Positions 339 through 8,416 of a stretch of 64,000 bases of DNA are shown here, piece by piece (positions within the stretch are counted from its first letter, which is position 1; each line of letters starts with the position of its first letter). Made by a program: the position numbers and the translations under genes. The notes under the pieces are model-generated. The model saw nothing but the letters and a program-made list of their open reading frames with translations. It did not search any database and was not told the origin of the DNA. Origin of the DNA: Pseudomonas laurentiana (lineage in GTDB: Bacteria; Pseudomonadota; Gammaproteobacteria; Pseudomonadales; Pseudomonadaceae); the NCBI RefSeq assembly GCF_014648275.1, contig NZ_BMQU01000016.1:62001-126000 (forward strand). Reading direction: 5' to 3'.

Positions 339-1586
339 ATGCGTATTGCAATCGTCGGCAGCGGCATTGCCGGCCTCACGGCGGCCTACCTGCTGCAGCG
401 CAACCACCACATCACGGTCTTCGAGGCCGCTGACTGGATCGGTGGCCACACCCACACTGTGAATGTTCAATTGAATGAACGCAGTTATGCGGTCGACACC
501 GGTTTCATCGTGTTCAATGACTGGACCTACCCGAATTTCATTGCCCTGATGGAGCATCTGGGCGTGACCTCATGCCCTACCGAGATGAGTTTTTCGGTGC
601 ATGAGCCCAAGACGGGCCTGGAGTACAACGGCAACACCCTCAATAGCCTTTTCGCCCAACGCAGCAACCTGATATCGCCGGCGTTCTGGGGAATGCTACG
701 GGACATTCTGCGCTTCAACCGCGAAGCACCACTGGACCTAGACCGAGCACACATCGACGCCAGCACGACACTCGGCAGCTATCTGCAACAGCGTGGCTAT
801 GGCAATCGCTTCATCGAGCACTACATCGTGCCGATGGGTGCCGCGATCTGGTCAATGTCGCTGGCCGACATGCTCGGGTTTCCCTTGGCATTCTTCGTAC
901 GTTTTTTTCGCAACCACGGCCTGCTTTCGGTCACCAACCGCCCCCAATGGCGGGTGATCAAGGGCGGCTCCAGCGCCTACATCAAGCCGCTGACGGCCAG
1001 CTTCGCCAAGCACATCCGCCTGAACTGCCCGGTGCAACGCGTATGCCGTGACACGGAGGGTGTCAGCATCACAAGCACTGCCGGGATCGAGCGCTTCGAT
1101 AAAGTGGTATTTGCCTGTCACAGCGACCAGGCCTTGGCGTTACTGGAAACGCCTACCGAGCAAGAGCAGCAGATACTCGGGGCCATCGGTTATGCGCAAA
1201 ACGACGTTGTGCTGCACACCGACACCCGTCTGCTGCCCGACCGACGCCTGGCCTGGGCGAGCTGGAACTATCGCCTGGGTGGTCCTGAGCACGCGCCTGC
1301 GGCGGTGACCTACAACATGAACATCCTGCAAGGCCTGGACGCACCACGCACCCTCTGCGTAAGCCTCAACCAAAGCGAGGCCATCGACCCGACACAGGTG
1401 CTCGGCCGCTTCCGCTATGCACACCCGCAGTACAGCCTCGGGGCCCTTGCCGCGCAGGCACGCCACGCTGAACTGCTCGGCCCGCAGCACAGCTACTACT
1501 GCGGCGCCTACTGGGCCAACGGCTTTCACGAGGATGGTATGGTCAGTGCGCTGAAAGTGGCTCAGCAGTTCGGGGAGCGATTATGA
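339..1586 (+). CDS. FAD-dependent amine-oxidase-like protein (COG2907; UfaD-like)
   Basis: A 415-residue flavoprotein. The N-terminus has the Rossmann dinucleotide motif GSGIAG at residues 7-12, followed by the acidic end of the second strand (TVFEAADWIGGHTHT). This is the COG2907/NAD(P)-binding amine oxidase-like family, which sits beside CFA-synthase-like genes. The Rhodobacter relative RSP_1091, as I recall it, is the UfaD desaturase of furan fatty acid synthesis. The start at 339 was chosen over an ATG at 309 because it follows an AGGAG and leaves no long overlap with the SDR. The stop overlaps the DUF1365 start (ATGA). It probably works on a fatty-acyl chain together with the methyltransferase downstream; that role is inferred from context. 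Confidence 0.85.
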   Translation: MRIAIVGSGIAGLTAAYLLQRNHHITVFEAADWIGGHTHTVNVQLNERSYAVDTGFIVFNDWTYPNFIALMEHLGVTSCPTEMSFSVHEPKTGLEYNGNTLNSLFAQRSNLISPAFWGMLRDILRFNREAPLDLDRAHIDASTTLGSYLQQRGYGNRFIEHYIVPMGAAIWSMSLADMLGFPLAFFVRFFRNHGLLSVTNRPQWRVIKGGSSAYIKPLTASFAKHIRLNCPVQRVCRDTEGVSITSTAGIERFDKVVFACHSDQALALLETPTEQEQQILGAIGYAQNDVVLHTDTRLLPDRRLAWASWNYRLGGPEHAPAAVTYNMNILQGLDAPRTLCVSLNQSEAIDPTQVLGRFRYAHPQYSLGALAAQARHAELLGPQHSYYCGAYWANGFHEDGMVSALKVAQQFGERL

Positions 1587-2383
1587 ACAGCGCCTTGTAC
1601 CACGGCTGGGTAAGCCACCGACGCTTAGCCCCACGCGCGCATGCCTTTCGCTACCGCATGAGCATGTTGTACCTGGACCTGGCTGAACAGGATGCGTTGT
1701 TTGCACTCAGCCCACTGGCCGGGCGCGAGCGATTTTCAGCGTTCAGCTTCCGCGAACAGGACTACCTGCCGCGCTATACACACAGCGGCGTAGCGCTGGC
1801 CGATGCCGTCAATCTGCTGCTCGTGGAGGCCCTGGGCTACGCCCCAGGTGGCGCCATACGCCTCTTGACCCAAGCGCGGAACTGGGGATTGGCCTTCAAC
1901 CCGGTGAGCTTTTTCTTTTGCTTCGACAAACACGACGCCCTCGCAGCCATTTTGTGCGAAGTCACCAACACACCCTGGCGCGAGCGCTTTCACTATGTAT
2001 TGCCGTGTCATGAGAGCGGTGTACAGCAGTTCAGCGTCGCCAAAGCCTTTCATGTCTCGCCCTTCTTGCCCCCGGACCTGGAATACCGCATGCGCTTCAC
2101 GGCGCCAGGGCAACACCTGAATATTTCCATGCAGGACTGGCAAGGGCCAGAAAAGCTGTTTGAAGCCGGTCTGAGCCTGACCCGCATGCCCCTGAACCGC
2201 AGCAACCTGCACCGCCAGTTGATCGCCTTCCCCTGGATGTCAGTCAAAACCGTGACCGCCATCTACTGGCAGGCCCTGCGCCTGCTCCTCAAACGCACGC
2301 CAGTCTTTTCCCATTACGACACCCCGCGACATCTGCGTGTCGCCCGTAACCGCAGCGAGGACGTTGACCATGAAGAGCCCTAA
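1583..2383 (+). CDS. DUF1365 family protein
   Basis: A 266-residue protein of the DUF1365 (COG3496) family. The family pattern is visible: SALYHGWVSHRR at the N-terminus, RYRMSMLYLDL, then NPVSFFFCFD near the middle and EVTNTPWRERFHYVLP after it. It is mostly soluble with no signal peptide. The biochemical role is unknown. It is almost always encoded between the COG2907 flavoprotein and a CFA-synthase-like methyltransferase, as here, so a part in unusual fatty acid synthesis or lipid handling is likely. It starts by a 4-base overlap with the upstream gene and ends 14 bases inside the next, which indicates translational coupling. Confidence 0.88.
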   Translation: MNSALYHGWVSHRRLAPRAHAFRYRMSMLYLDLAEQDALFALSPLAGRERFSAFSFREQDYLPRYTHSGVALADAVNLLLVEALGYAPGGAIRLLTQARNWGLAFNPVSFFFCFDKHDALAAILCEVTNTPWRERFHYVLPCHESGVQQFSVAKAFHVSPFLPPDLEYRMRFTAPGQHLNISMQDWQGPEKLFEAGLSLTRMPLNRSNLHRQLIAFPWMSVKTVTAIYWQALRLLLKRTPVFSHYDTPRHLRVARNRSEDVDHEEP

Positions 2384-3638
2384 CCTGACCGTCGCCAAAA
2401 GCGGAGCCTTCGCCGCTGGCAGCACGGGCTTGCTCAAGCGCCTGGTGCTGCGCCAGTTGGCACGGCTGCGCAAAGGCCAACTGACCGTACTGGTTGACGG
2501 TCAGCGCCTGTCGTTCGGCGAAGCCCGCTCCAGCCTGGTGGCCGAACTTCAGGTGCTGGATGATGCGCTGTGGGGGCTTATCGCTACCAACGGCTCGATC
2601 GGCGCCGGTGAAGCGTACGTACACGGTCACTGGACCAGCCCGGACCTGACTGCCGTGATTCGCCTGTTCGTCGCCAACCTCGACATACTCGACGCGATGG
2701 AGGGCGGCCTGGCACGCCTTGGGCGGCCCTTGGTGCAAGGCCTGCACTGGCTTAACCGCAATACTCGCAAGGGCTCGAAACGCAACATTGCAGCGCACTA
2801 TGACTTGGGCAACGCGCTGTTCGAGCAGCTGCTCGACCCTACCATGATGTACTCGGCCGCCATGTTCCGCAGCACAGAAGACAGCCTGGAACAGGCACAG
2901 CTGAACAAACTGGAACGTATCTGCCGCAAACTGGACCTGCGCGCCAGCGATCATCTGCTGGAGATCGGCACGGGCTGGGGCAGCATGGCACTCTACGCCG
3001 CAACCCATTACGGCTGCCGTGTAACGACCACGACACTGTCCGAAGAACAGTACGCCTACACCTGCCAACGTGTCGCCGAGCAAGGCTTGCAAGGGCGCAT
3101 CACGGTATTGCGCAAGGACTACCGTGACCTTGAAGGGCGCTATGACAAACTGGTCTCGATCGAAATGATCGAGGCGGTTGGCCACCGTTTCCTGCCCAAC
3201 TATTTCCAGCAATGCGCACGCCTGCTGAAGGACGACGGCCTGATGCTGCTGCAAGCCATTACCATCCGTGACCAACGCTATGAACAAGCTCGACGCTCGG
3301 TGGACTTCATTCAGCGCTACATCTTTCCCGGTGGCGCCCTGCCCTCGCTGACCCGCATGCTGGAAATCGCCAGCCGAGACACGGACCTGAACGTCCACCA
3401 CCTGGAAGATTTCGGCCTGCATTACGCCCGCACCCTGCGCCTCTGGCACGAAAACCTGTGCCGAGCCCGCCACGCCTTGCAGCTGTTGGGTTACGACGAA
3501 ACGTTCCAACGCATGTGGGAGTTCTATTTCTGCTACTGCGAAGGAGGCTTCCTGGAGCGCGGCATCGGCGTGGCTCAATTGCTCCTGGCCAAACCTGACG
3601 CCCGTCCTGCACCCCTGCTAGAGGCACTGGAAGCCTGA
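2370..3638 (+). CDS. CFA-synthase-family SAM methyltransferase (UfaM-like, probably not a cyclopropane synthase)
   Basis: A 422-residue class I SAM-dependent methyltransferase of the cyclopropane-fatty-acid synthase family. The SAM-binding loop LLEIGTGWGS is at about residues 196-205. Compared with E. coli Cfa from memory, Glu239, Tyr317 and Cys354 have equivalents (Glu268, Tyr317, Cys390). Cys139 (YSCAYW) is Ala163 (YSAAMF) and the bicarbonate-ligand His266 (LLHTIG) is Gln295 (LLQAIT). Loss of these residues argues against cyclopropanation and for plain chain methylation, as proposed for UfaM or BfaB-type enzymes. The start at 2370 has a GAGG 8 bases upstream; an ATG at 2337 in the same frame lies inside DUF1365. 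The related P. putida gene ufaM is reported as light-inducible. Confidence 0.85.
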   Translation: MKSPNLTVAKSGAFAAGSTGLLKRLVLRQLARLRKGQLTVLVDGQRLSFGEARSSLVAELQVLDDALWGLIATNGSIGAGEAYVHGHWTSPDLTAVIRLFVANLDILDAMEGGLARLGRPLVQGLHWLNRNTRKGSKRNIAAHYDLGNALFEQLLDPTMMYSAAMFRSTEDSLEQAQLNKLERICRKLDLRASDHLLEIGTGWGSMALYAATHYGCRVTTTTLSEEQYAYTCQRVAEQGLQGRITVLRKDYRDLEGRYDKLVSIEMIEAVGHRFLPNYFQQCARLLKDDGLMLLQAITIRDQRYEQARRSVDFIQRYIFPGGALPSLTRMLEIASRDTDLNVHHLEDFGLHYARTLRLWHENLCRARHALQLLGYDETFQRMWEFYFCYCEGGFLERGIGVAQLLLAKPDARPAPLLEALEA

Positions 3639-3640
3639 GC

Positions 3641-4132
3641 ATGAACCGACGCCTGATCGGCAATGCCGTGCTGTTCCAAGTCGGTTGGACGGCCTGTCTT
3701 TTCGGTGCACGGCACCCCATCTGGTTACTGCTGGCGCTGGGGTGTCTGGCCTTGCAGGTGGCCTGGGCTCCGGCACCTGCACGCGAATGCCGCCTGCTGT
3801 TGAAAATCGCCGCCTGTGGCTGGGTGCTAGACAGCCTGTTGCTGAACCTGGGCGTGTTCGATTTCGGTGACAACCGCTGGATCCTACCCAATTGGCTGGC
3901 GATACTCTGGCTGCTGTTTGCCAGCACCTTGCGTCTTAGCCTGGCCTGGACCGCATCGCCCTTATGGCTGGCGGCACTGTTCGGAGGCCTGGGTGGCCCC
4001 ATGTCGTACTATGCCGGAGCACACCTGGCAGGCGTCGGCTTCCCCTACGGGCTTTGGCCATCGCTAACCCTGCTCGCACTCCTCTGGGCGCTACTACTGC
4101 CAGCCTTGCACCGCTTGGCCCGCCACCCGTGA
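3641..4132 (+). CDS. DUF2878 family inner-membrane protein
   Basis: A 163-residue very hydrophobic protein with about five membrane-spanning segments, for example around residues 7-22, 26-40, 48-65, 85-105 and 135-155. It matches the DUF2878 pattern (GNAVLFQVGWTACLF at the N-terminus; PNWLAILWLLFASTL in the middle; GPMSYYAGA after it). The function is unknown. It begins 2 bases after the methyltransferase stop and is the last gene of the rightward operon, facing the leftward operon that ends at 4182. Its position with lipid-modifying enzymes suggests a membrane partner of that pathway; this is inference only. Confidence 0.82.
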   Translation: MNRRLIGNAVLFQVGWTACLFGARHPIWLLLALGCLALQVAWAPAPARECRLLLKIAACGWVLDSLLLNLGVFDFGDNRWILPNWLAILWLLFASTLRLSLAWTASPLWLAALFGGLGGPMSYYAGAHLAGVGFPYGLWPSLTLLALLWALLLPALHRLARHP

Positions 4133-4181: not shown

Positions 4182-4487
4182 CTACCAGGTAGACCGTATG
4201 GAAAACGGCAGTTTCAGCGGCGCATCAGCACTGTTACCCAAGCCGCACATTTCGTCATGCACGACCTTCTGCACCAGCAGACACGGGATTTCGGGTAGAT
4301 GCTGCAACACCTCTCGGGCGTGAGTCGTCGAGCGCAAGCAGAGGTTGTGCCCCTGCTCGTCGAGCAACGGGTGCAGCTTGCCCTCCATCAGTGCCTGCAA
4401 GACGTAAATCCCGCCCTCAAGCGAGACCAGATTGAGCTCGTCAACGCGCCCTGCATCGGCGAAGCCTGACAGTTGCTGAAGGTTCAT
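4182..4487 (-). CDS. DUF6482 family small protein
   Basis: A 101-residue protein beginning MNLQQLSGFADAGRVDEL and containing LVSLEGGIYVLQALMEGK, which resembles the Pseudomonas DUF6482 family. The frame stays open further upstream (to 4643), but that extension overlaps the real SDR gene on the same strand and has low-quality sequence, so the internal ATG at 4487 is chosen. There is no signal peptide or membrane segment. It lies 49 bases downstream of the SDR gene on the same strand and may be the last member of the 6340-4182 operon. Function unknown. Confidence 0.7.
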   Translation of the reverse strand: MNLQQLSGFADAGRVDELNLVSLEGGIYVLQALMEGKLHPLLDEQGHNLCLRSTTHAREVLQHLPEIPCLLVQKVVHDEMCGLGNSADAPLKLPFSIRSTW

Positions 4488-4536: not shown

Positions 4537-5223
4537 CTACCAGGGCAAGCGTTCGCCCTGATAGCTGAAAAAGGCGCCGCTGTCGGCGGCGGTGACGCCG
4601 TCAAGCACGGCCAGCATATCCGCCACGGCTTCGCGTGGAGCACGCGCGGCAGGACGAAACGGTCGGGACAGGGCTGACGCGACAGTGCCAGGATGCAGCG
4701 CGACCAGGCGCTTACCGGGCCAGCGCCGTGCCGCTTCTATCGCCGCCGTTTTGAGGAGCATGTTCAGTGCCGCCTTCGAGGCCCGGTAGCTGTACCAGCC
4801 CCCCAGGCGATTGTCGGCGATGCTACCGACCTTGGCCGACAATACCGCCAGCAGACCGTTGCTCCCGAGCAATGGCACAAAGTCCCGCAACACCAGTGCA
4901 GGGCCAATGGCATTGATCTGAAACGTTGCCAACAGTTGCTCCTGATTCAGTGACTCCAGCGCCTTCTCCGGCATGAAACCGTCACCGTACAGAACACCAG
5001 CAGCCAACACGATCAGATCAAACGGCGGCTGGCCTTCATAAGACTGGGCAGCCATGGAAATGCTCTGGGGGTCGGTCAAATCAAGAGAGGGGCGTGTACT
5101 GCGCCCCAGGCAGTGCACCTCGGCACACCGCGGATCCTCACGGAGCACATCGACGAAAGCACCACCAATGGCACCACTGGCACCGATCACCAATGCCCGA
5201 TACCCCTCCGGCAGACTGTTCAT
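4537..5223 (-). CDS. SDR family oxidoreductase (CsgA-like)
   Basis: A 228-residue classical short-chain dehydrogenase. The nucleotide-binding GASGAIGG starts at residue 14. Catalytic residues are visible as Ser129 (LSAKVGS), Tyr146 and Lys150 (YRASK), followed by LVALHPGTVASALSRPF. The substrate is not known. The start codon overlaps the stop of the DUF3833 lipoprotein gene by 4 bases (ATGA), so it is in the same operon. Homologues sit in light- and singlet-oxygen-inducible clusters, often next to photolyase genes; no photolyase is present in this window. Confidence 0.88.
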   Translation of the reverse strand: MNSLPEGYRALVIGASGAIGGAFVDVLREDPRCAEVHCLGRSTRPSLDLTDPQSISMAAQSYEGQPPFDLIVLAAGVLYGDGFMPEKALESLNQEQLLATFQINAIGPALVLRDFVPLLGSNGLLAVLSAKVGSIADNRLGGWYSYRASKAALNMLLKTAAIEAARRWPGKRLVALHPGTVASALSRPFRPAARAPREAVADMLAVLDGVTAADSGAFFSYQGERLPW

Positions 5224-5759
5224 GAGTTACCCCCGCCGCGCCTGAAGAACAGCGTCACCTGCCCCAGCTCCAGACCAAACTTGGACATGAATGAGCGGTT
5301 GATCAGCGTGTCGTCATCCATCAGGTACATCCAGTCATCGAACTGCACCGGATAAAACGCGCCGTCCACCTCCAGGTTGAGGGTGTAGCGCCAACGCAAC
5401 GCATTACCGGCCACCTGACCCTCGGCCTCACCGATCACGTCGCCCGCCGTACCGCGCCAGCGCCCAGGGCCACTCGGTGTCAGGCGCCAAACCCGTTGCT
5501 GACGGGTGCCATCGCTATACACAAAACGCTCATCGAGGATCAGCGCTTGCCCCTCCATCCGCCCCTCGATGGTCACATGGAAACGCTTGACCACCTCGCC
5601 CGAACGCTTCTGGAACATGCCCCAGGCTTGCACGGGCACCGAGAAGAACCGCGGCAAGTCCAATGCTGGCGTCTCGTTGCGGTAATGATCGACGTCAACG
5701 TTGCCGCAACTACTCAACAGCAGGCTGCATGCCAGCAGGCAGGACTTCCACATCATGCT
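5220..5759 (-). CDS. DUF3833 family lipoprotein
   Basis: A 179-residue lipoprotein. The N-terminus MMWKSCLLACSLLLSSCGN is a short signal peptide with an LSSC lipobox (Cys17). The mature part has the DUF3833 pattern (FFSVPVQAWGMFQKRSG) and a mostly beta, lipocalin-like look that ends in MYLMDDDTLINRSFMSKFG. I prefer the start at 5759 because GAGGG lies 5-6 bases upstream and the signal peptide is then of normal length; an ATG at 5774 that overlaps the upstream stop (ATGA) is the alternative. It is probably anchored in the outer membrane and may bind or carry a modified lipid; that is inference. Confidence 0.83.
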   Translation of the reverse strand, partial: SMMWKSCLLACSLLLSSCGNVDVDHYRNETPALDLPRFFSVPVQAWGMFQKRSGEVVKRFHVTIEGRMEGQALILDERFVYSDGTRQQRVWRLTPSGPGRWRGTAGDVIGEAEGQVAGNALRWRYTLNLEVDGAFYPVQFDDWMYLMDDDTLINRSFMSKFGLELGQVTLFFRRGGGNS

Positions 5760-5770
5760 TACCCTCATCG

Positions 5771-6340
5771 TCATTTCCCGCCCAGCAAGTGCTGGCGCAA
5801 CTCAGGGTTACGCGTACGCGGGTCAAACCAGATATCGAAAAACGCACGCGAGAACGCAGGATCAACAACCTCGTAATGCAAACGGTCATCCACGTAGAAC
5901 CGCGCCCCGGCACCCGGTAAAAACACACCGATGATCCGCTGCCCTGGCTCAACATCGACAAAGGCCCGTGCCATCTGCGCCTGCCACACCTTGAGTTGCG
6001 CATCATCGACCGCCCTGCCTCGTAAGCGACGTATCTCGTCAACGCTGGCGTCCACCAGTTGCGCGCGGCTGATTGATCGGTGATAGGTCAGCTCAAGCGC
6101 GAAGGGTTGCTGATAATCCAACTGGGCTGAAGCACCCCACAGGTTCGCGCTGTACACCCGAAAACCATAGAGCCGAAACTCGGCACTGCCGATCAGGTGG
6201 CCACCGGGCAGCAGCGCCTGCCAACTGGCGAAAGCACCTGGACTGCACAGCAACAGGGCGCTGAACAACACGCCCAACGTCCTGCGTTCGACCAGACGTG
6301 TCAGGCTATGACGCAGCAAGGGCAATGACGGTCTGTCCAT
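5771..6340 (-). CDS. Chalcone isomerase-like periplasmic protein
   Basis: A 189-residue protein with an N-terminal signal sequence (hydrophobic stretch around residues 23-37, likely cleavage near AFASWQ). The body matches the bacterial chalcone_isomerase-like family (GSAEFRLYGFRVYSANLW; FALELTYHRSISRAQLVDAS; PGQRIIGVFLPGAGARFY). Bacterial members are thought to bind fatty acids or lipids rather than flavonoids; no activity can be claimed here. It is the first gene of the leftward operon, and the three TGTACA boxes lie 89-144 bases upstream of its ATG. Its stop is next to or overlaps the following lipoprotein start. Confidence 0.82.
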   Translation of the reverse strand: MDRPSLPLLRHSLTRLVERRTLGVLFSALLLCSPGAFASWQALLPGGHLIGSAEFRLYGFRVYSANLWGASAQLDYQQPFALELTYHRSISRAQLVDASVDEIRRLRGRAVDDAQLKVWQAQMARAFVDVEPGQRIIGVFLPGAGARFYVDDRLHYEVVDPAFSRAFFDIWFDPRTRNPELRQHLLGGK

Positions 6341-6649
6341 GGCATGGGACTACCTTTTCTAAACAAGGCCGAAATGTAGTTTTCTCTGGCACTCGGGACT
6401 GCATGCACGACTGCACCTCAAAATAGTTGTACAGAAATTGGTATTTGTACAGCTTAATGCGGCGATTTATTGTTTTTTGTACAACTTACCGTCAAAAGGT
6501 CGTACCGAATCAAACCCGGAGCAGGCTCAGCAGCAAGAAACTCCGAGCAGCAGGTGATTGCCTTGCCGTTCTAGGAACTAGACTGATGCGCGCGTCTATT
6601 TCCAAACACAGGGTTTGGCGCTTGCCGAACTGTCGATAGGGAACACCTC
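6341..6649. other. Divergent intergenic region between light-type operon and arsA
   Basis: These 309 bases lie between the divergent chalcone-isomerase-like gene and arsA. The part at 6425-6490 is AT-rich and holds three TGTACA boxes (annotated separately). The part nearer arsA (6490-6640) has no gene I can recognise. An open frame at 6427-6639 has no ribosome-binding site or family resemblance. AGGGAA at about 6638-6643 is a plausible Shine-Dalgarno for arsA. Confidence 0.6.
6429..6484. promoter_or_regulatory. Probable LitR/PplR (MerR-family) light-response operator
   Basis: TGTACA occurs at 6429-6434 and again at 6447-6452 with exactly 12 bases between, and a third time at 6479-6484. The reported P. 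putida PplR1 binding direct repeat is T(G/A)TACA-N12-TGTA(C/T)A, so the first two boxes are a perfect match. PplR proteins are LitR/CarH relatives that repress in the dark; blue light relieves repression through LOV partners. The operator most likely controls the leftward 6340-4182 operon. Because TGTACA is palindromic and arsA diverges from the same region, an effect on arsA cannot be excluded. Confidence 0.8.
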
Positions 6650-8416
6650 ATGCAGTTTCTAGAAAGCCCCCCGCGATTTCTGTTTTTTACCGGCAAAGGC
6701 GGTGTGGGAAAAACCTCGATTGCCTGCGCTACGGCACTGCAGCTCACGGCACAAGGTCGGCGCGTACTGCTGGTGAGTACCGACCCGGCATCCAACGTTG
6801 GACAGGTCTTTGGCATCAGCATTGGTAACCACATCACCCCGGTACCCACTGTTGCCAACCTGTCGGCGCTGGAAATTGACCCTCAGGCTGCGGCGCAGGC
6901 CTATCGCGACCGGATTGTCGGCCCTGCCCGAGGCGTGCTTGAGGCCAGCGTCGTCAAGAGCATGGAGGAGCAATTGTCGGGTGCCTGTACCACAGAAATT
7001 GCTGCCTTCGACGAGTTCACTGCACTACTGGTCGGCTCCAGTCAAACCGACCGCTACGAACACATCATTTTTGACACTGCGCCCACCGGGCACACCATTC
7101 GCCTGCTGCAACTCCCGGGCGCGTGGAGCGGCTTTCTGGATGCCGGCAAGGGCGATGCCTCTTGCCTAGGACCGCTGGCGGGTCTCGATAAACAGCATGA
7201 CCAGTACCGCAAGGCAGTTGAAGCGCTCTGCGATCCAGTACGCACGCGGCTGGTCCTGGTCGCTCGGGCGCAAAATGCCGCGCTACGCGAAGCCGCCCAC
7301 ACCCATGAAGAACTCGCCACCCTTGGCCTTCGCGAGCAGTACCTGGTGGTCAACGGTGTGCTACCCGGCACCGAGGCCGAAAAAGACCCACTGGCTGCAG
7401 CCGTGTATACGCGGGAGCAGTTGGCGCTTGCCCAAATGCCTGAAGCACTCAAGCCACTGCCGCTGGATCAACTACCACTGAAGGCCTTCAACCTGGTGGG
7501 TATTGAAGCCCTGAAACAGTTGTTGCGTGATACATGTGACACTGAAGGCCTCCAGCCCACCGTCGTCCACATTGATGCGCCAAGCCTGAGCGACCTCGTC
7601 GATGACATCGCCCTGGATGGCCACGGGCTAGTGATGGTCATGGGCAAAGGTGGCGTAGGTAAAACCACCTTGGCAGCAGCGGTGGCCGTCGAACTGGCTC
7701 ATCGGGGCTTGCCGGTTCACCTCACCACCTCAGACCCGGCCGCGCATCTGGCCGAAACCTTGAGTGGATCAATGAGCAACCTCACCCTCAGCCGCATTGA
7801 CCCTCAGGTCGAAACCCAGCGGTATCGCGATCACGTGATGGCGACCAAAGGCGCGGCTCTGGATGAGCAAGGCAAAGCCCTTTTGGCCGAAGACCTGCGC
7901 TCGCCCTGCACAGAAGAAATCGCCGTCTTCCAGGCGTTTTCCAGAGTCATTCGGGAGGCCGGCAGGCGGTTTGTGGTCATGGATACAGCCCCCACCGGGC
8001 ATACCCTGTTGTTGCTCGATGCCACTGGCGCCTACCACCGCGATATCGCCCGACAAATGGAAGGCAGCAGCATGCACTTCAGTACCCCGATGATGCAGTT
8101 GCAGGACCCGAAAAAAACCAAGGTATTGCTGGTGACACTGGCCGAAACAACACCGGTACTTGAAGCGGCCAACCTGCAAGCCGACCTGCGGCGTGCTGGC
8201 ATTGAGCCTTGGGCCTGGGTGATCAACAACAGCATCGCGGCCACCACAACCCAGTCACCACTGCTCCGTAAACGGGCAGAGAATGAGCTTGAGGAAATCG
8301 AGCATGTGGCCAATGAGTACGCCAGACGCTATGCCGTAATCCCCTTGATGGCCGAGGAACCTATCGGTGTTGAACGCCTGCTCAAACTGAGCAAGAAACA
8401 ACCCCGGCACAGGTGA
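6650..8416 (+). CDS. arsA: Arsenical pump-driving ATPase, two-domain ArsA
   Basis: A 588-residue tandem ATPase of normal ArsA length. It has two P-loops of the deviant GKGGVGKT type (residues 15-22 and again about residue 330) and two DTAPTGHT signature motifs. The three arsenite-binding cysteines of the plasmid R773 protein have equivalents: Cys113 (GACTTEIA), Cys near 172 (GDASCLGP) and Cys in the second half (RSPCTEEIA). In known systems ArsA binds As(III) from ArsD and energises the ArsB permease. Neither arsB, arsD nor arsR is seen within about 6 kb upstream or anywhere downstream in the window, so this copy is an orphan. A Get3-like role is less likely because of the double domain and cysteines. 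Confidence 0.92.
   Translation: MQFLESPPRFLFFTGKGGVGKTSIACATALQLTAQGRRVLLVSTDPASNVGQVFGISIGNHITPVPTVANLSALEIDPQAAAQAYRDRIVGPARGVLEASVVKSMEEQLSGACTTEIAAFDEFTALLVGSSQTDRYEHIIFDTAPTGHTIRLLQLPGAWSGFLDAGKGDASCLGPLAGLDKQHDQYRKAVEALCDPVRTRLVLVARAQNAALREAAHTHEELATLGLREQYLVVNGVLPGTEAEKDPLAAAVYTREQLALAQMPEALKPLPLDQLPLKAFNLVGIEALKQLLRDTCDTEGLQPTVVHIDAPSLSDLVDDIALDGHGLVMVMGKGGVGKTTLAAAVAVELAHRGLPVHLTTSDPAAHLAETLSGSMSNLTLSRIDPQVETQRYRDHVMATKGAALDEQGKALLAEDLRSPCTEEIAVFQAFSRVIREAGRRFVVMDTAPTGHTLLLLDATGAYHRDIARQMEGSSMHFSTPMMQLQDPKKTKVLLVTLAETTPVLEAANLQADLRRAGIEPWAWVINNSIAATTTQSPLLRKRAENELEEIEHVANEYARRYAVIPLMAEEPIGVERLLKLSKKQPRHR

Follow-up and report, generated by a model that had tools for sequence, protein, structure and literature searches.

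A 64,000-nucleotide stretch of the Pseudomonas laurentiana genome (hereafter the window; G000:C16:62001-126000, genome 5.21 Mb) carries three TGTACA boxes in front of an operon that opens with a chalcone-isomerase-like (CHI) gene. The question raised by this locus is whether the operon belongs to the blue-light regulon of Pseudomonas and, if so, what purpose the third box might serve. We consider it likely that the boxes at 6428-6451 are the class II LitR operator of the CHI operon and that the third box corresponds to the inner half-site of a second operator. On sequence grounds the operator at the CHI site is genuine and conserved, the class II LitR/short-LOV system itself being already known.

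The boxes and their gene context

Identical TGTACA boxes occupy positions 6428-6433, 6446-6451 and 6478-6483 of the window, with 12 bases (N12) between the first two and 26 (N26) between the second and third. These are the spacings originally predicted; the interval given for them, 6429..6484, was one base too high. The first two boxes match exactly, as had been claimed, the operator consensus of P. putida PplR1, T(G/A)TACA-N12-TGTA(C/T)A (as cited in the available part of PMC9758184), and the gene context had also been described correctly: CHI-like, DUF3833 and short-chain dehydrogenase (SDR) genes on the minus strand, with arsA divergent (Table 1). The operator sits in the promoter region, with 88 bp between it and the start codon of CHI. 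Within 6341-6649, TGTACA is found at up to one mismatch at 6428, 6446 and 6478 only; a double operator of the P6650 type, with two full N12 operators, was rejected since only these three boxes are present.

Table 1. Features of the CHI locus and N12 sites; unprefixed positions refer to the window
Feature	Position	Strand	Basis or remark
DUF2878, ufaM-like, ufaO-like (DUF1365) and ufaD-like genes	339..4132	+	convergent; named by domain and order
DUF6482 protein, probable last operon gene	4182..4487	-	Pfam DUF6482
Short-chain dehydrogenase	4537..5223	-	Pfam adh_short; 4-base overlap with DUF3833
DUF3833 protein	5220..5774	-	Pfam DUF3833, 231.5 bits; 4-base overlap with CHI
CHI-like protein with N-terminal hydrophobic helix, first gene	5771..6340	-	Pfam Chalcone_3 PF16036, 39 bits, cut-off 27
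AT-rich block after operator, ACTATTTT in operon orientation	6420..6427	-	possible -10 or operator flank
Putative class II LitR (PplR/PmlR)-type operator, TGTACA-N12-TGTACA	6428..6451	-	exact consensus match
Third TGTACA box, putative half-site at second-operator position	6478..6483	-	begins 32 bp from the start of the 6446 box
Divergent gene for an arsA-type ATPase	6650..8416	+	Pfam ArsA_ATPase
N12 operator, site under study	C16:68428		before CHI
N12 operators	C8:108166 + C8:108215		upstream of rudS(DUF1722)-litR-phrB
N12 operator	C8:109289		upstream of FAD oxidoreductase
N12 operator	C16:60744		before Trp-rich protein gene
N12 operators	C16:61075 + C16:61120		before SnoaL-SDR-ufaD-ufaO-ufaM cluster
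N12 operator	C21:23782		between tandem-PAS receptor and cryB
N12 operator	C3:356396		before another tandem-PAS receptor
N12 operator	C21:2638		without clear target
N12 loci without queried light genes	L108, L111, L114, L118, L121, L124, L133		

The order of the operon through DUF6482 is the same in P. defluvii, and DUF3833 follows CHI in 6 of 10, 15 of 30 and 31 of 42 loci in three locus sets. An AlphaFold model of the CHI-like protein (mean pLDDT 85, 11 sequences) was matched by Foldseek to the folds of chalcone isomerase, CHI-like proteins and the Arabidopsis fatty-acid-binding FAP (AtFAP), with a best E of 2.1e-07 and query TM values of 0.53-0.63 among the 50 matches listed. We infer that the protein is lipid-binding, its gene lying beside those for furan fatty acids. 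The ufa cluster begins upstream of the window, behind operators of its own (C16:61075 and 61120); the functions of ufaM, ufaD and ufaO are known from R. sphaeroides (available part of PMC7380195).

A candidate light regulon and its regulators

A genome scan for the same repeat, proposed as a check on the original prediction, returned ten TRTACA-N12-TGTAYA sites against none for the reversed-pattern control, and six of the nine sites other than that at CHI stand at light-gene promoters: rudS-litR-phrB, ufaM and cryB. When TGTACA pairs at any spacing from N0 to N30 were counted, ten were found (reversed pattern, one), of which six are N12; the N25, N21 and N26 pairs connect adjacent boxes within the C8, ufaM and CHI promoters, respectively, and the remaining one is an N3 pair at C1:415018. 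The promoter of rudS-litR-phrB (C8:108166-108238) has boxes 18, 31 and 18 bp apart, and the two ufaM operators of the genome lie 27 bp apart. Beyond cryB at C21:23782 lies folE; a joint light unit of the two genes was ruled out, as they are convergent and the operator is on the cryB side only. The DUF1722-fused proteins we take, by their domain, to be RudS. This assignment is backed by the available part of PMC11417400.

The absence of a LitR-type regulator from the genome had been named as an argument against the prediction; two class II LitR genes of the MerR family are encoded, LitR1 (C8) and LitR2 (C14), and the search proposed for litR, LOV and phrB also brought up a short LOV protein and the rudS-litR-phrB genes. 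The best solved-structure matches of both LitRs are CarH/LitR of Thermus (PDB 5c8d, 3whp), which like them consists of a MerR DNA-binding and a helical domain, and LitR1 gives a B12-binding_2 match of 26.7-27.5 bits. In the Thermus CarH protein the GERHEIG motif contains a histidine that is the cobalamin ligand; in alignments of both LitRs this residue is replaced, as expected for class II LitR. In the available parts of the two papers, class II LitR is called B12-dependent by PMC11417400, contradicting PMC9758184.

The short LOV protein (152 aa, L103:3036-3491) is encoded near LitR2, conserves the reactive cysteine in DCRFLQ and has 7r5n as its best solved match (E 5.5e-68). Near LitR2 there are, besides the short LOV, a FolM-like SDR and a gene in between, the same gene set as described for pmlR2 in P. 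mendocina (PMC9758184). A near-consensus operator at this locus was considered and rejected: the single match in 8 kb of L103 has three mismatches and lies inside the FolM-like gene.

The work of Sumi in 2020 is said to have counted 19 light-inducible genes in P. putida. According to the available part of PMC9758184, PmlR2 of P. mendocina binds TGTACA-N12-TGTACA in footprints, represses in run-off transcription and is taken off DNA by illuminated LOV in SPR, whereas in gel shifts a LOV-LitR-DNA complex persists in the light, against the SPR release; protection at P6650 runs from about -45/-54 to +32/+37 and spans two operators. Our locus shares with the P6650 system, as far as that text describes it, the TGTACA-N12-TGTACA operator, a class II LitR with a short LOV, and ufa targets. 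P6650, however, has two full operators and TTGACT-N16-TATGAT, whereas the CHI site has one full operator and one half-site, has no recognisable sigma70 hexamers and precedes CHI-DUF3833-SDR. Compared with the 18-31-18 arrangement of the genome's own rudS-litR-phrB promoter, the CHI site corresponds to the 32-18 part; it is without the fourth box of that promoter and without the TTGACT-N16-TATGAT found there from matched sequences. Elsewhere, again as given in the available parts of the papers, PP_0738-PP_0742, including PhrB and PplR1, form a light-linked cluster (PMC11014904), rudS, phrB and litR are one LitR-controlled operon (PMC11417400), and folE2, ufaM and phrB are PplR-controlled (PMC8508746). 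Among the open-licence literature matches listed, none joins chalcone isomerase or DUF3833 to PplR/LitR light control.

In the mechanism we propose, a LitR dimer would sit on the two N12-spaced boxes in the dark and block the promoter of CHI-DUF3833-SDR-DUF6482; in blue light the short LOV would bind LitR, LitR would be released, and the operon would then be transcribed at the same time as the cryB unit and the ufa and rudS-litR-phrB units. A second operator, placed three helical turns from the first, would have the 6478 box as its inner half-site, the outer half being missing or decayed, and a second LitR dimer would be held there through contact with the first. Binding by LitR, repression in the dark and induction by light are presumed by analogy with P. 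mendocina and P. putida. Judged from the exact consensus, the LitR and LOV genes, the six light-gene promoters and the 16 of 76 CHI promoters described below, the reading of the site as a light operator has good inferential support; its extension to arsA is unsupported. The widespread but unexplained CHI-like and DUF3833 proteins would hereby be tied to the Pseudomonas blue-light regulon, beside the furan-fatty-acid genes, and their involvement in light or membrane protection would become open to test.

CHI promoters of relatives and the third box

CHI was searched for in 149 genomes of the genus, 104 of which gave a match at E <= 0.001; we took the 67 loci at E <= 2.1e-44 (30 + 37), leaving out weaker matches, and with ten named loci and three re-fetches these amount to 80, or 76 distinct CHI loci after subtraction of four duplicates. 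An exact N12 operator is found within 250 bp upstream of CHI at 16 of the 76 (own included; reversed pattern 0 of 76), counts which are not independent because the 16 promoters are related. At the other 60, many of them stand-alone or behind folE, it is absent over that distance. Any single box upstream of CHI was seen at 60 of 76 loci versus 13 of 76 for the reversed pattern. Within a cluster-context set of 43 loci (one of them, L203, without CHI), the operator is present at CHI in 15 of 23 loci with ufaM, DUF2878 or cryB nearby versus 1 of 19 others, and in L185, L186 and L198 a LitR gene is also inside the CHI cluster. The nearest named relative seen is P. defluvii, with a CHI 88% identical; its promoter differs from that of the window by 19 substitutions in 119 bp, none of them in the 18 box bases. 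Comparison of these promoters indicates that the operator at 6428..6451 most likely belongs to the CHI gene.

Other arrangements are seen further afield. In P. protegens-type genomes (L036, L037, L039, L041, L045, L055) CHI-DUF3833 comes after folE, and the TGTACA boxes upstream of folE are spaced 39-45 bp, not 18. In the CHI promoters of L048, L050, L054, L062 and L068 the centres of TGTATACA and of the TGTACA after it are about 26-27 bp apart, and a CGTATA(A/G)G-like element comes next; the box spacing differs from N12.

Eleven of the 16 N12-bearing CHI promoters also contain a third box, which in every case lies on the far side of the pair from CHI; none of the 16 has one downstream, and shuffles gave 0.52 on average and 3 at most. 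Its start-to-start spacings are 20, 21, 22, 22, 22, 24, 31, 32, 32, 32 and 32, ten of the 11 boxes thus lying within about a base of two or three helical turns; the N26 + N12 layout is shared by L073 and P. defluvii (L034). Not every box pair keeps to strict two- or three-turn phasing, as the 24 bp of L057 and the 27 bp at ufaM show. Pairs of operators 49-51 bp apart, with an inner spacing of 31-33, were found in at least 12 genomes plus the C8 promoter here, and stand before rudS-litR in all seven loci taken. Since the 32-bp spacing is common to such paired rudS-litR operators, the third box is best read, from its position and conservation, as half of a second operator. It is possible, though not likely, that the N12 pair instead works alone as the operator, the third box being an accidental or decaying copy of no effect: five of the 16 N12-bearing CHI promoters do have no exact third box, and the scan of 6341-6649 finds no N12 partner for the 6478 box within one mismatch, but a chance copy would hardly recur so far above the shuffled promoters and always on the same side, nor stay unchanged in P. 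defluvii while the flanks diverge, and the 32-bp spacing shared with the paired operators likewise argues for function. Of the two roles first suggested for the box, that of a further binding position within this promoter fits (11 of 16; 32-bp spacing) and control of the divergent gene does not; cooperative LitR binding at the box is something we infer only.

The promoter itself is less easily recognised. No consensus sigma70 promoter was found in a consensus scan of 6300-6700, and no counterpart of the P. mendocina P6650 -35/-10 can be made out at the CHI operator. In 11 of the 16 CHI promoters TATT stands at +1/+2 past the downstream box, where shuffles average 0.4 and reach at most 3; it may be a -10 element or an operator flank. 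Taken as a -10, it would have the upstream box some 20 bp ahead of it, an arrangement known from MerR-activated promoters, whose -35/-10 spacer is overlong. A further reading, which we hold to be doubtful, is that the three-half-site LitR operator constitutes a distinct conserved class with graded repression and possibly a MerR-like distortion of the promoter. A LitR tetramer on one face of the DNA, contacting the full operator and the phased half-site, would then give partial repression in the dark; the N12 pair would be flanked by a -35-like box and a TATTT -10 with an overlong spacer of about 20 bp, and distortion of the promoter by class II LitR might add to its blocking. With the conserved third box, nature supplies a series of one, one and a half and two operators in which the grading of short-LOV/LitR repression could be tested.

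That the third box regulates arsA through a shared bidirectional light promoter, as had also been suggested, appears quite improbable. From the end of the box to the start codon of arsA there are 167 bp, a shorter distance than for the other two boxes; however, none of the 11 arsA loci that lie apart from CHI has TGTACA, TATACA or TGTATA within 480 bp upstream, and for nine of the 11 third boxes no arsA was found nearby. Given these box-free arsA loci, control of arsA is unsupported, and the gene is probably outside the regulon. Among the loci seen, CHI and arsA are adjacent here and in P. defluvii (L034) only; a DNA search with the CHI-arsA junction matched 28 of 399 genus genomes (own included), the non-own matches covering the query partly.

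The N12 repeat across Pseudomonas

Across 119 Pseudomonas genomes, TGTACA-N12-TGTACA has 261 matches versus 7 for the reversed pattern, and the strict site is present in 111 genomes and absent from eight. In 99 of these genomes N12 alone gives 223 matches; the 22 spacings N13-N34 together give 411 versus 129 reversed, or about 19 per spacing. Genes for rudS, litR, the FAD oxidoreductase or the ufa cluster are found at 23 of 30 genus N12 loci taken, and at the other seven none of the queried light genes lies within 1.5 kb (Table 1); these seven sites, together with the eight genomes lacking a strict site, mean that the N12 pattern alone is no proof. Several of the seven loci carry one sequence, TGTACAGGAACAGGCCGCTGTACA or its reverse complement, and sites of this type are perhaps coding DNA.

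It is accordingly conceivable, if very improbable, that a regulator unrelated to LitR reads the site at 6428-6451: TGTACA is a short palindrome, and the seven loci without a recognised light gene leave room for such a protein, but the spacing and sequence equal those of the footprinted PmlR2 sites, and the other N12 sites of the genome include the promoters of litR itself, ufaM and cryB. That the N12 pair is a functionless product of chance is scarcely credible: single TGTACA boxes are common in the window, yet their 15 occurrences against a shuffle mean of 6.57 (15 reached in one of 100 shuffles) are a mild enrichment only, so that the signal is carried by the N12 spacing, and the pair, present once in the window, appeared in none of 100 dinucleotide shuffles, its reversed controls stood at zero in the genome and at the CHI loci, and it is conserved in diverged relatives.

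Some N12 sites of the genome have less familiar neighbours. The operator at L014:2638-2661 (G000:C21:2638) lies about 600 bp after one gene and about 750 bp before another, which we take, by eye, to be CheV-like and of LysR type, respectively. A TATACA-N12-TGTATA at L011:7744-7767 is about 70 bp upstream of the DUF2389 Trp-rich gene (L011:7835-8050); in several relatives the Trp-rich gene adjoins FAD-oxidoreductase/rudS operators instead. The operator G000:C3:356396 (L012:6396-6419) stands 16-39 bp upstream of a gene for a soluble tandem-PAS/MCP-signal protein (L012:4962-6380, minus strand), presumably of BdlA-like layout, and light control of this dispersal- or taxis-type receptor is possible. 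Among the 30 best relatives of that gene, own included, the 350 bp upstream hold an N12 operator in four, the two closest among them, and a genus-wide trait was therefore rejected; a match in G076 likewise has the operator. A second tandem-PAS/MCP gene (L015:5399-6724, minus strand) diverges from cryB (L015:6961-8499, plus strand) over the operator at L015:6782-6805, and an EAL-domain gene lies downstream of this receptor.
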